A stretch of 32,579 nucleotides of DNA from NCBI GenBank assembly GCA_900315885.1, contig ONAT01000004.1, positions 1 through 32,579 of the forward strand. The letters are read 5' to 3'. The translations under genes and the position numbers were made by a program. Shown here one piece after another: positions 899 through 7,197 of this stretch. The stretch's first letter is position 1. Each line of letters begins with the position of its first letter. The notes beneath the pieces are model-generated. The model searched no databases. It was not told the DNA's origin and was given only the letters and a program-made list of their open reading frames with translations. The DNA is from an uncultured Erysipelotrichaceae bacterium. Its GTDB lineage: Bacteria; Bacillota_I; Bacilli_A; RFN20; CAG-826.

Positions 899-1811
899 GG
901 ATAACACCACCTTTTTTCTTAAATAAACTCTTAATTAGAGGAATACAAAGTGCAATGGTAATTAATACTGCATATAATAAGTTCTTTAATTGAGTTGGGA
1001 ATCCTAGAGCAATTGCTACGTTAATAATTACAAAATAAACAACTGCACCAAGAACTACAGAAATAATCCAGTTTTTGAAACTCTTTTTACCAAATATTGC
1101 TTCACCGATAAGAATAGAAGCTAAACCAACGACGAGAAATCCAGATGATGATTTAATATCTATGCTTCGCGCATCTTGAGCAAATAAAGCACCAGCCATA
1201 CCAATCAAAGCATTAGAAATAGCAACACATACGATAGTGGCTCTTTCAGAATTAATACCTTGAGCACGTGCCATTTGAGCATTCATGCCCGTAGCACGTA
1301 TAGCCATTCCGTATTCAGTGCCAAAGAAATAATAGACCAATAATGTTACTAAAATTACAGTAATTGCCATTACGATTACTTCAACTATTCTATTATTAAT
1401 TCCGTTAATAAAGAAATAAGAGAAAATTGTGTGATCTGTTGCGTGTAAAGTAACAAGGTTTGCAAAGACAGAATTATCTTTTGTAGCACCAATAATAAGT
1501 AATGTTATGGATGTCGCTGCGGTCATCGTGATAATTCCACTCAATAATTTAGGAATGCGAAGTTTAGTATTAAGTAAACCAGTAACTAAACCACAGAGAG
1601 CACCGCCGAGTGCACCGATAATCGTGGCTAAGAAGGCGTTTCCACCTTTAAATATGATAGTTGCGCATATTGCTCCGCCTACTAGGAAACTTCCTTCAGC
1701 AGTTAAATCTGCAAAATCCAATAAGCGATATGTTAAGAAAATACCTAAAGCTAATAAACAACAAGGTAAAGCGGAAGTAAATATATTAATTATTAGTTCT
1801 CCAAGTGGCAT
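885..1811 (-). CDS. ABC importer permease subunit (TrpY-like, BPD_transp_2 type)
   Basis: Membrane subunit of the importer, 308 aa, with about eight to nine hydrophobic segments across its whole length. It resembles the permeases that pair with the ABC_sub_bind lipoproteins (related to branched-chain amino acid and sugar permeases). The stretch GTEYGMAIRATGMNAQMARAQGI is the likely cytoplasmic coupling loop, rich in the Gly/Ala/Arg residues seen there in relatives. Its ATG overlaps the lipoprotein stop codon by one base (TAATG), and its end overlaps the ATPase gene, so the three genes form a tight translationally coupled operon. The family is clear; the substrate is inferred. Confidence 0.88.
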   Translation of the reverse strand: MPLGELIINIFTSALPCCLLALGIFLTYRLLDFADLTAEGSFLVGGAICATIIFKGGNAFLATIIGALGGALCGLVTGLLNTKLRIPKLLSGIITMTAATSITLLIIGATKDNSVFANLVTLHATDHTIFSYFFINGINNRIVEVIVMAITVILVTLLVYYFFGTEYGMAIRATGMNAQMARAQGINSERATIVCVAISNALIGMAGALFAQDARSIDIKSSSGFLVVGLASILIGEAIFGKKSFKNWIISVVLGAVVYFVIINVAIALGFPTQLKNLLYAVLITIALCIPLIKSLFKKKGGVIHARN

Positions 1812-2851
1812 TAATTTTCACCTGCACTTATATCTGTGAATTTAGTTTTAACAGAATCAGGCAATGTAATATCGGTATCAGCAAGATTTTTGCTTGACAT
1901 AACATATACACATTCTTCTTTTGTCATTGTGGCGACAGGAATTTCGTTAGGCTTCTTTTCACCTTTAATAATTGATACTGCAATATTGCCACATTTACGA
2001 CCTAATTCAAAGTAATCAACGGATAAAGTAACATGACCACCATTTTTCAACATACCTTCTTCGCCACATATAACTAATATCTTGTTTGTATCAGCAGCGG
2101 CTTTAATTGTATTCATATTAGCGGCAATATTGTTGTCGGTTGGAATATATAATGCATCCACTTTGCTACATAAATCTCTTGCTGTCGCTGATAAGTCAGT
2201 TGAATCGGTACAAGTAGAAATTTTTACTTCAAGTCCCATTCCTTCAGCAGCGGCTTTAGCTTGATTTGCTTGTACTTCAGAGTTTGTTTCTGATTGTGTA
2301 TAAATGATTCCAAGTTTTGTAGCACTTGGTAAACATTCTTTGATTAAATTAATTTGTTCTTCCACAGGGTTTGCATCACTAGTGCCAGTAATATAACCGC
2401 CTGGATTTGTATTAGAACTTACTAATTCAGCATCAACAGCATCAGTAACAGCAGTGAACAAGATTGGGTTAGTAGAACCACTATTGATTTGTGCAGAATG
2501 TAAGGCTTGGCTTGCACCAGTTCCGATACCTAGAGTTAAGTCACAAGAACTTGTGAGATTTTTTGCTAAAGTATTTTGATCAGAACTTACTCCATTCGCG
2601 TTACTATATGTAATTGTAATGTTTTGTCCATCTTTATATCCTGCAGTATCTAATGCGTTGATAAATCCTTCTCGTGCTTTAGATAAAGCATCATGCTCGA
2701 TTGGCTGCAAAATACCAATTTTGATGTTGTTTTCATCCTTTGGTGTAAATTTCCAGTTTGTCATGTCAACGTTGTTTATAGGGTTACAGCTTGCTAGAGC
2801 TAATAAGGCTATAAATAGATTAATAGGTTTTTTAATTACATTTGTTTTCAT
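1811..2851 (-). CDS. ABC importer substrate-binding lipoprotein (TrpX-like)
   Basis: Extracellular binding protein of 346 aa. The N-terminus has Lys residues, a hydrophobic stretch and the lipobox LASC with the lipidated Cys at residue 22. The rest matches the ABC substrate-binding family associated with TrpXYZ-type systems: an early KIGILQPIEHDAL strand, GTGASQAL in the N-lobe, and DALYIPTDNN and GGHVTLSVDYFELG in the C-lobe. A GGGAGG site at 2859-2864 sets the start. It is the first structural gene after the leader and attenuator, so read-through there should control all three genes. The tyrosine-codon-rich leader suggests tyrosine or another aromatic compound as substrate (inference). Confidence 0.9.
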   Translation of the reverse strand: MKTNVIKKPINLFIALLALASCNPINNVDMTNWKFTPKDENNIKIGILQPIEHDALSKAREGFINALDTAGYKDGQNITITYSNANGVSSDQNTLAKNLTSSCDLTLGIGTGASQALHSAQINSGSTNPILFTAVTDAVDAELVSSNTNPGGYITGTSDANPVEEQINLIKECLPSATKLGIIYTQSETNSEVQANQAKAAAEGMGLEVKISTCTDSTDLSATARDLCSKVDALYIPTDNNIAANMNTIKAAADTNKILVICGEEGMLKNGGHVTLSVDYFELGRKCGNIAVSIIKGEKKPNEIPVATMTKEECVYVMSSKNLADTDITLPDSVKTKFTDISAGEN

Positions 2852-2865
2852 ATTGATTCCTCCCT

Positions 2866-2907
2866 AAAATAAAAAAAACTTAAGCGATAAAATTGATAAC
2901 ACTTAAG
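2866..2907 (-). terminator. Attenuator terminator of the importer operon
   Basis: On the minus strand CTTAAGTG (2907-2900) pairs with CGCTTAAG (2886-2879), one U-G pair included, with a 13-base loop and then TTTTTTTTATTTT (2878-2866). It sits 15 bases before the lipoprotein start and after a complete leader peptide gene. Its loop and inner stem are also the partner of a longer competing helix, which makes it a conditional terminator. Confidence 0.8.
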
Positions 2908-2983
2908 CAAAAATATTATTTGTTTGGCGGCGTTATCAATTTCATCAATAACACCTACATATCAAAATCTAGATATTATTGAT
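2879..2983 (-). promoter_or_regulatory. Attenuator with alternating RNA helices
   Basis: Five segments on the minus-strand RNA give four alternating helices. 1:2 is 2983-2970 with 2957-2944 (14 pairs, two G-U). 2:3 is 2955-2948 with 2936-2929 (8 pairs, one G-U). 3:4 is 2946-2932 with 2900-2886 (15 pairs, one G-U, extendable). 4:5 is the terminator stem. Segment 1 overlaps the last codons and stop of the leader peptide. A ribosome stalled on the Tyr codons would leave segment 1 free, favouring 1:2 and the 3:4 antiterminator. A ribosome at the stop codon would cover segment 1, favouring 2:3 and the terminator. The pairings are read directly; the mechanism is inferred. Confidence 0.75.
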
Positions 2984-3044
2984 TACAGCGGTAATAATAA
3001 TATCCATAAAAGAAAACTGAATTAGTGATAAATGACAATACCAT
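2976..3044 (-). CDS. Tyrosine-rich leader peptide (22 aa)
   Basis: Short gene with a strong AAGGAG site at 3058-3053, eight bases before its ATG at 3044, ending in TAA at 2978-2976. Codons 11-19 read FFYGYYYYR, so five of 22 residues are Tyr (codons 13 and 15-18, four TAT and one TAC), next to two Phe. It is followed at once by mutually exclusive helices and a terminator, the arrangement of amino-acid-operon leader peptides such as those of trp, phe and his operons. Its translation, not its product, is the likely function: stalling when charged Tyr-tRNA is scarce would let transcription reach the importer genes. Confidence 0.8.
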   Translation of the reverse strand: MVLSFITNSVFFYGYYYYRCNQ

Positions 3045-3072
3045 AATAAAATCTCCTTTTTTTGATACTAAT

Positions 3073-3101
3073 AACATAGCACAAGAAAAAATCTATTACA
3101 A
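3073..3101 (-). promoter_or_regulatory. Promoter of the leader and importer operon
   Basis: On the minus strand TTGTAA (3101-3096) and TATGTT (3078-3073) are separated by 17 bases, each matching four of six consensus positions. The predicted transcript begins just before the leader peptide ribosome binding site. Confidence 0.5.
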
Positions 3102-4962: not shown

Positions 4963-6318
4963 TTATTTGTTGATGTAATACAAGTCATCCACTAATGTTA
5001 CATCACTTGAAGATGAATTTGTAACAGTTAATGAACTTGGATAAGTATTATCATAGGCCAATACATAATAACTTAAATTTGACATTGTTACGCGCATTGA
5101 AGCAATAATATTTGTGCCATCTGTAACTATAATGTATTTATTTGATGTGACAGAATAATTTGTTTGAACTTTAACTGTTACATCACCTTGCTTTGTTGGA
5201 ACTTGACGCATATCTGCTCCACCAAATCCAAAGAAGAAGCCACCCTTAAAAGTGAATATTCCATCAAAGTCTAACAATCCATTTCCTCCACGTGATGGTC
5301 CTTGAGCAAAGACAACACCACCAGACATTTCAATATTGCCGTTTGAATCAATAACATCACCTTGAGCAGAGATGTACATTAAACCACCAGTAATATTAAG
5401 CATTTCCGCATTTTCTCTTTCATCTCCACCGGCAGCATTCACACCATCATCACTAGAGTTAATAACCATTGTGCCTCCATTGATATTTATTGTGAATGCT
5501 TCAAGTCCTTCATACGAATTAGAAATATTAATAGTTCCGTTATTGATTGTTAGAGTGCTATCAGCGTGGATACCATCATCATCAGTATATAAATCAAATG
5601 TTCCTCCATTGATAGTAATGCTTCCTTCTCCATAAACATTTGTCTCTAAAAGGTTATCGTTATTAGCGTGTATAGCATCATCGTGAGCTTTGACTACTAT
5701 AGTGCCACCTTCAAAAGTGATTTGGTTATCTGCTTTGACACCTTTGCATGAGTAGTCTGCAGAATTTGGATTTCCTTCTTGCATTCCTCCACCACCTGGG
5801 CCACCAGGTTGATTTTGGTAATTAGTCCAACTACCTTTCATAGTGTTACCATTAATTGAACTTACTTTAAACATATCATTATTTGTTGGTAAACTCATTT
5901 TGGTTTCAGAAATATATGTGTAAGTTTCAGTGCTATTAATAGTTTGAGAATTTGAATATCCATAGAAAGTTACGCTTTGTGCATTACTTGGTTTCTTTAA
6001 AGAATAATAATATGTTGAACGATTAAAGTTGCCAGATGATGTCTCTTTAGATAACGTTACCCAAGATTGAGTGTTATCTACTAAAGTAAATAATGCACAG
6101 AAAACTGTGGAATCTGTATCAAAATGACCACCACGAGAGAAACTTAAAGCAAAATACATTTTTTCAGAAGAAGTTGCAGTTACTTCTTTAGAATATGGTG
6201 AATAGCTTTCGGTATACGCCTCAATTGTTGGATATGTTTTATTTGTGGCATCACCAATTATAACATCATAAGCAGCATCAATTGCATCATGCTGCATATG
6301 CTTTGATTTTTCCATCAA
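4963..6318 (-). pseudogene. C-terminal part of a frameshifted Cthe_2159-type beta-helix lipoprotein
   Basis: This frame continues the lipoprotein that starts at 7135. The family-like sequence resumes with HDAIDAAYDVIIG near 6297; the few residues before it are out-of-frame translation. Repeats such as DDAIHANN, DDGIHADS, YEGLEA, DDGVNAAG and GDVIDSNG, with INGGT between them, show the right-handed parallel beta-helix of the carbohydrate-binding Cthe_2159 family. About 110 residues (roughly 30-160 of this frame) are a different, Ser/Thr/Tyr-rich stretch inserted between helix modules, followed by a Gly-rich linker (GGPGGGGM). The AQGPSRGGNG stretch near the end is typical of the family. The upstream frame must shift by +1 (or -2) near 6290-6300 to join. 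It may be a true mutation, a sequence error or, less likely, programmed shifting. Confidence 0.8.
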
Positions 6319-7135
6319 GAATTGTAATTGTGCCTCGTTGTTTTCCTTTACTAGAAATATCAGAGTTACTTGTTTTTAAAGCATCCCCGTTTGTGGATAT
6401 AGCAGTAATGGTGCCAGAATTAATAGTTAGAGAATCACCACCTTTAATTGCATTGTTTGGTGCAGTGACTTCAATTTCCGCTTTTTGAATTTCTAAATCA
6501 TCTTTGGTAGCAATGCCGTTATTATAAGATGATGTAACACTTAAATATCCTGCACCTTTAATTTTCATATCAATAGTGCTATAAAGAGCGGCATTTGAAC
6601 CATCTTTTGTATCAATATCACTTGTTCGAGTGTCAGTAATATAATTTTTAGTGTTCTTTTTGGCGGAGATATCAATTTTGTCTCCGTTAAAAATTCCTAT
6701 TGGAGCGCCATAGTTACATGTGATATTTACTCCGTTAAGATTTAATTCGATTTTCTCATCTTCGCTAGCAGGATTAACAATTATTTTGCCGTTACTTAAT
6801 GTGCCTGATACATCGTAAGTGCCTGCACCAGTAATATAGATTTCATTTTCATTTACTACGACAAAACCATTATTATTTGTGACTGTTGATGCATTATCTT
6901 CTAAAGCAATGACCGTGGATTTTGTGGAATCGTAGTTTTCATCTGGATCTGTACTAGGAGATGAAATACTAACTGGGGTAATGCTTGTAGATGTGCTTGT
7001 GCCAGTACTTGTGGTATTAGAACCTATAGAACTAGGCGTTGTGTTAGATGTATTGTTACTTGTTACACTACCATTGTTAGAACATGAACAAATAGCAAGT
7101 AATGCTAACGGAAGTAAGATAATTTTCTTTTTCAT
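6287..7135 (-). pseudogene. N-terminal part of the same frameshifted beta-helix lipoprotein
   Basis: Starts at the ATG at 7135, behind an AAAGGAG site, and begins with a lysine-rich signal peptide and lipobox (ICSC, Cys18, or LAIC, Cys16). A Ser/Thr/Asn linker of about 40 residues follows, then the Cthe_2159-type N-module (ITGAGTYDVSGTLSNGKIIV, DLEIQKAEIEV, GGDSLTINSGTITA). It is a surface-anchored protein; family members bind acidic plant polysaccharides. The frame stops at TGA 6287-6289, inside what should be AYAAHDAIDA, so the full product of about 725 residues is split. As written, only a 282-residue lipoprotein without most of the helix would be made. The signal peptide, ribosome binding site and a promoter-like TATAAT (7172-7167) remain intact. 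Confidence 0.8.
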
Positions 7136-7197
7136 AAATTTATCACTCCTTTTTGATATATTATAAATTATAATATTTCTCGTTTTATTGGAAGTTT

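Follow-up and report, generated by a model that had tools for sequence, protein, structure and literature searches.

The window analysed here, a stretch of 32,579 nucleotides that belongs to contig 38 in a genome of 1.32 Mb (97% complete) from an uncultured gut bacterium, carries on its minus strand a three-gene operon for an importer of the ABC type, downstream of a short leader (Table 1). Records of related genomes are labelled Erysipelotrichaceae or Bacilli, and several are ruminant-derived. A first-pass annotation of this DNA had claimed a tyrosine-rich leader gene of 22 codons with an AAGGAG site upstream, and this was found exactly as described. With its AAGGAG and ATG, and with counterparts at 73 loci of the family, the leader is predicted to be translated. 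Its tyrosine density was reached by 4 of 2000 shuffles of the window alone, and a scan of 1.33 Mb, approximately the whole genome, yielded no second mini-ORF that combined a ribosome binding site, a run of at least five in seven of one residue and a terminator preceding a gene. The promoter that had been proposed is plausible but is a weak match and is absent from the output of a generic promoter scan. Similarly, the proposed terminator has all of its pairs (8/8) and a tract of eight T, but it is AT-rich, its loop is 13 nt long, and a generic terminator scan missed it; the terminators of many relatives are stronger.

Table 1. Features of the leader and importer operon (positions in the window).
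Feature	Position	Strand	Remarks
Candidate promoter, TTGTAA-17-TATGTT, TGC before -10	3073..3101	-	8/12 matches; weak
AAGGAG, ribosome binding site of leader	3053..3058	-	read directly from sequence
Leader ORF, MVLSFITNSVFFYGYYYYRCNQ and stop, 22 codons, Tyr at codons 13 and 15-18	2976..3044	-	ATG at 3044
Segment 0, four consecutive Tyr codons, TATTATTATTAC	2991..3002	-	pairs with segment 1
Segment 1, leader end and stop codon	2970..2986	-	partner 0 or 2
Segment 2	2944..2957	-	partner 1 or 3; 2:3 by folding, 2955-2944/2940-2929
Segment 3	2929..2946	-	partner 2, or 4 as antiterminator
Segments 4 and 5, terminator hairpin	2879..2907	-	2907-2900/2886-2879
T-tract, eight T	2871..2878	-	read directly from sequence
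AGGGAGG, ribosome binding site of importer's first gene	2859..2865	-	read directly from sequence
Lipoprotein substrate-binding protein, PF04392, TrpX/CD0873-like	1811..2851	-	CD0873-type Glu and Tyr pocket residues
Permease, PF02653	885..1811	-	
ATPase, PF00005	107..910	-	

The four helices of the first-pass annotation pair in full: 2983-2970/2957-2944 (1:2) at 14 of 14 positions, including two G-U pairs, 2955-2948/2936-2929 (its version of 2:3) at 8 of 8, 2946-2932/2900-2886 (3:4, the antiterminator) at 15 of 15 and the terminator (4:5) at 8 of 8. The scheme was nevertheless incomplete, as it overlooked a helix between the tyrosine codons and segment 1 (0:1; 3002-2991/2986-2974; 12 pairs, one bulge, loop CGCT, -4.9 kcal/mol), and if this helix were absent, read-through would be expected of a leader that is not translated. 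Five helices therefore follow each other in the order 0:1, 1:2, 2:3, 3:4 and 4:5, with each segment competing for its neighbour, and the pairing in the window, together with covariation in relatives, indicates that terminator and antiterminator are mutually exclusive. In A1, the largest group of relatives, the equivalent first hairpin is paired in 90-97% of alignment cells; here Tyr-Ser-Tyr codons and CCAAGA pair downstream, and segment 1 lies inside the loop. We note that, in contrast to the AAGGAG of the window, hardly any Shine-Dalgarno sequence or none precedes many ATGs of A1 leaders (for example L033:1228-1242), and these leader mRNAs may be nearly leaderless transcripts.

We propose that the leader attenuates transcription by way of the ribosome, sensing charged tRNA-Tyr and so controlling an ABC importer for tyrosine, a reading in which the sequence evidence gives us high confidence. 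When tyrosine runs short, leader and RNA hairpins would very probably turn on the importer. With no ribosome on the leader, the tyrosine codons of segment 0 would pair with segment 1, then 2:3 and 4:5 would form and transcription would meet the terminator. Under tyrosine shortage, a ribosome stalled in the tyrosine run would cover segment 0, 1:2 would form, followed by the 3:4 antiterminator, and the importer would be transcribed. With plentiful tyrosine, a ribosome at the stop codon would cover both segments 0 and 1, 2:3 would form and the terminator with it. Such a scheme supposes translation of the leader, stalling within it, actual termination and a role for tyrosine, possibly with phenylalanine, as both ligand and signal. 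It is laid out much as the enterobacterial his attenuator is generally known to be, with six alternating segments, the regulatory codons in the first helix and the 3' arm of that helix competing for the next. In the his leader (segments A-F), stalling gives B:C and D:E and so antitermination, and the ribosome-free and stop-codon states lead to termination. The window differs from it in having tyrosine rather than histidine codons, an importer rather than biosynthetic genes, a host in the Bacillota and no match to an Rfam leader family.

This switching was modelled by barring nucleotides under the ribosome from pairing, in folding at equilibrium and not co-transcriptionally. The terminator probability in the window was 0.37 with no ribosome, 0.28 with the ribosome at the stop codon and 0.00 with it at each of the five tyrosine codons, the first two values amounting in this equilibrium model to partial termination only; the value for the stall was matched by none of 150 shuffles of the window. 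Over 50 clusters of leaders the mean probability was 0.66 without a ribosome, 0.75 at the stop and 0.52 at a tyrosine stall, and the stall fell below the stop in 26 clusters and above it in three (Wilcoxon p=1e-5). Along the leader, the mean was smallest for codons -9 to -8, which belong to the tyrosine-dense part, and largest for -1 and the stop codon. When only the stretch from stop to terminator was shuffled, the effect went from 0.25 to between -0.02 and 0.03. These calculations suggest that the position of the ribosome decides the fold, and the first-pass logic of stall and stop was borne out at equilibrium by folding with and without a ribosome block.

TrpX-like genes were present in 90 of 224 genomes of the Bacilli family, and comparison of their upstream regions revealed a tyrosine-rich leader ORF at 73 of the 90 homologous import loci (among them MKRAFYYFYSYYYPRGNQ, MMNNNCFSVLPISAYYYYYYCQKEGVIL and MKQSMIQHMRRSTGFYYYYYYYR). 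Leaders in relatives are 13-32 codons long. The 73 leaders of the family and that of S. suis were screened for a terminator hairpin, and 72 of these 74 have one; in relatives it follows the leader's stop codon by 60-81 nt (10th-90th percentile; median 67) and typically sits 20-30 nt upstream of the gene. Of 50 non-redundant relatives, 47 have an ATG mini-ORF with at least four tyrosines in 10 codons; among 1000 dinucleotide shuffles, 5 do. Within the 50 non-redundant leaders, TAT replaces TAC and vice versa at equivalent positions, which points to selection on the residue that is read. As the orthologous leaders retain both the tyrosine codons and the competing helices, the claim of attenuation came through this comparison. 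In another Bacilli family (f20; L151, L152, L154 and L158) tyrosine leaders with different sequences have, by eye, the same helix layout.

Among 29 aligned relatives, the antiterminator state was paired in 93.2% of alignment cells, compared with 20-52% when partners were slid, and the terminator state in 90.9%, compared with 28-47%. Helix 1:2 is kept in 95% of cells among relatives and helix 3:4 carries compensatory changes. Several columns change jointly in both competing helices, as expected if both are selected. Covariation scores for the 29 relatives lay above all 500 shuffles; these scores and the paired fractions are measures that related rows inflate, and counts of doubly changed pairs or pair types did not exceed those of column shuffles; with this reservation, the alignment contains both the covariation and the conserved tyrosine codons that were looked for. 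A covariance model built from these relatives, with the window left out, was used to search 220 genomes (its E-values are rough). All of the strong matches precede the importer and none lies away from it in these genomes, for a model that represents one sub-type and may miss others. Positions 2875-3012 (-) of the window gave the sole match in their own genome (30.4 bits, E=0.003); there was also one weak match (G004:C4:37366) and one antisense match (in G037). Conservation, covariation and modelled switching together thus argue for the ribosome-mediated attenuation responding to tyrosine that had been suggested from the window's letters.

The solved structure nearest to the binding protein of the window is that of CD0873 of C. 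difficile (6HNI). CD0873 binds tyrosine, with Glu-263 hydrogen-bonding the tyrosine hydroxyl and Tyr-279 blocking tryptophan; the tryptophan-binding SP1069 has Ala and Gln at these two pocket positions (PMC6816091). The window's protein has equivalents of both CD0873 residues, and the pocket residues align unambiguously in most rows. The TrpX equivalog NF041285 was also considered and rejected, the window's protein scoring 268 bits against a cut-off of 390 bits. In the family, the pockets at loci with tyrosine leaders have Glu (61) or Asp (12), and all five proteins with an Ala/Val pocket are preceded by a T-box with the specifier UGG (Trp). There are exceptions: three Glu-pocket proteins, all from a single clade, have a Trp T-box, and at seven Glu-pocket loci there is neither a tyrosine leader nor a T-box. 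In other Bacilli families, Glu-pocket relatives have T-boxes with specifiers for Tyr (UAC; L153, L156, L160 and L161) or Phe (UUC; L155, L159 and L169), read by eye from Rfam alignments. Judging by the pocket and by the T-boxes of relatives, tyrosine is the best reading of the importer's substrate, with phenylalanine a possible co-substrate, and the first-pass suggestion of tyrosine as the substrate thereby gains independent support. The tyrosine cluster of the leader would then match the amino acid that, from the pocket residues, is presumed to be imported.

Two groups of relatives deserve mention in their own right. One (L087, L088, L094, L095, L097 and L098) has Glu pockets without leader or T-box, most of these genes being divergent from another ORF, and their regulation appears to have been lost or replaced. 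In L107, L110 and L111 a small conserved ORF that ends in FRW and a stop codon (MIQNLKKEFRW, MILNLKMVFRW) sits between the Trp T-box and the gene, approximately 60-100 nt before the latter.

One alternative is that the same attenuator answers to phenylalanine, or to tyrosine and phenylalanine jointly, and serves a Tyr/Phe importer. The 1075 codons of the 50 non-redundant leaders include 266 for Tyr, 134 for Phe and one for Trp, and with Phe codons at half the number of those for Tyr phenylalanine may be a co-signal; the commonest replacement in the leaders is a Tyr-Phe exchange, and the Phe (UUC) T-boxes of Glu-pocket relatives fit the same idea. Moreover, the C. glutamicum aroR-aroF leader (Phe-Tyr-Phe), which unlike the window's comes from the Actinomycetota and precedes a DAHP synthase gene, reportedly responds to Phe and not to Tyr, according to the account of Neshat 2014 in PMC11802643. 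However, tyrosine codons outnumber those for phenylalanine in 42 of the 50 leaders, equal them in seven and are fewer in one, three leaders have no Phe at all in their dense stretch, the four consecutive codons in the window are all Tyr, and the pocket Glu of CD0873 bonds to a hydroxyl of tyrosine (PMC6816091). We therefore regard a phenylalanine or joint signal as possible but rather unlikely.

Another possibility is arrest by the nascent peptide, as in TnaC or ErmCL, with the leader peptide sensing either free tyrosine or a drug while in the exit tunnel. Leaders of that type are known to use similar RNA switching, but here leader lengths and sequences vary freely, clades share only Tyr/Phe runs, and a PRGNQ tail conserved within a clade is explained by its RNA pairing; arrest of this kind is very improbable. 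The leader might instead be a metabolite riboswitch or a protein-bound leader for which translation is not needed and the mini-ORF is incidental, as the RNA is structured, conserved and provided with a terminator. This we find scarcely credible: no aptamer sequence is common to the clades, in which helix sequences differ and the layout is the same, tyrosine codons change synonymously, and the window has no Rfam match, whether to the T-box (RF00230, found elsewhere in the genome) or, above the gathering score, to the Trp, Phe, His, Leu and Thr leader families. A leader controlled by TRAP has about 11 spaced (G/U)AG triplets; by eye, only a handful of TAG/GAG triplets were seen in the window's leader. 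Chance occurrence of an A+T-rich ORF and helices, for which the AT-rich intergenic region and the silence of generic scans at the expected promoter and terminator could be cited, is refuted by conservation at 73 loci, the shuffles and the covariance-model search.

Attenuation by tRNA-Tyr charging would not be the only tyrosine sensing in this genome. The first-pass remark that no T-box lies at the locus held, but T-boxes are common in the lineage. Eight matches occur in the genome. Six of them were examined, and each lies upstream of an apparent aminoacyl-tRNA synthetase gene; the gene names, including tyrS, we have taken from the translations by general knowledge. The presumed tyrS is under a T-box with the specifier UAC (G000 contig 32:31772-31989; L173); together with the tyrosine leader of the importer, this implies that two different tRNA-Tyr sensors coexist in the genome. 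A DAHP synthase-like gene is present, and prephenate dehydrogenase was not found in the 97% complete genome although it is present in all of the control genomes, which makes the organism probably a tyrosine auxotroph that imports the amino acid.

Known control by tyrosine in Bacillota is through the T-box (PMC2494555), and we found no description of a tyrosine-specific leader attenuator, nor of one on a tyrosine importer, in the open-access literature or from general knowledge. Leader attenuation as such is already known in the phylum for histidine and branched-chain amino acids, so the novelty would lie in specificity and target, and also in lineage. The histidine leaders of Bacillota, including Erysipelotrichales, are predicted only (PMC2965389; PMC9413887); like the window's they are amino-acid leader peptides that replace T-boxes, but they precede histidine biosynthesis or hisS/hisZ genes. 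The Rli60 ilv attenuator of Listeria provides experimental evidence for ribosome-mediated attenuation in Bacillota (PMC5864092), in a four-segment layout that serves branched-chain amino acid biosynthesis, unlike that of the window. In Acholeplasma, a wall-less relative of Bacilli, uORFC-13-1 before aroF is a predicted aromatic leader ORF with a terminator (PMC8632094), with Phe codons, a DAHP synthase gene and no tyrosine run reported. Within the importer family itself, the S. suis trpXYZ operon is controlled by a Trp T-box (PMC9382623); as proposed for the window, tRNA charging controls transcription, but by a T-box that reads uncharged tRNA-Trp with no leader peptide.

We consider it likely that the window belongs to a widespread class of attenuators specific to tyrosine, or to tyrosine and phenylalanine, with six his-like segments, present in at least two Bacilli families and dedicated to tyrosine importers beside the Tyr T-box of tyrS. 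The layout of this putative class appears to recur with different sequences in those families. If this is correct, tyrosine would join the amino acids for which leader peptides serve as sensors, and charging of one tRNA would be read in two different ways in the same cell, with a T-box on tyrS and a leader on the importer, which would allow one to ask why uncharged tRNA is sensed in one case and stalling in the other. A substrate could be assigned within a transporter family that carries the label tryptophan or unknown, on which regulators (Trp, Tyr or Phe T-box, or Tyr leader) would seem to have been exchanged in a way that largely tracks substrate. Perhaps the leaders could also provide a sequence-only route to annotating the tyrosine importers of uncultured Bacilli from the gut, a group with at least one member that apparently cannot make tyrosine.

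Two further observations were made. The Rfam family RF02863, 'Enterococcus sRNA 2410', matches TrpX-like leaders in two genomes that are related to the S. suis locus (loci concerned: L143:1294-1475 (+), L142:2690-2502 (-) and L011:3701-3980 (+)). The match takes in the final part of an aromatic leader ORF (MKNINITSSNRSYFFSYFR; MQTPIKNLKQLNNFYFSYFRCCL), and in S. suis the counterpart is MLLMCQNHSANHTYFYGYFR, with downstream sequence similar to that of the RF02863 leaders; this element may be a Phe/Tyr leader attenuator instead of a free sRNA. Elsewhere in the window, at 4963-7141 (-), two overlapping ORFs each match the Cthe_2159 carbohydrate-binding family (PF14262) and jointly cover its profile, and are probably a single gene with a frameshift near 6290-6318.
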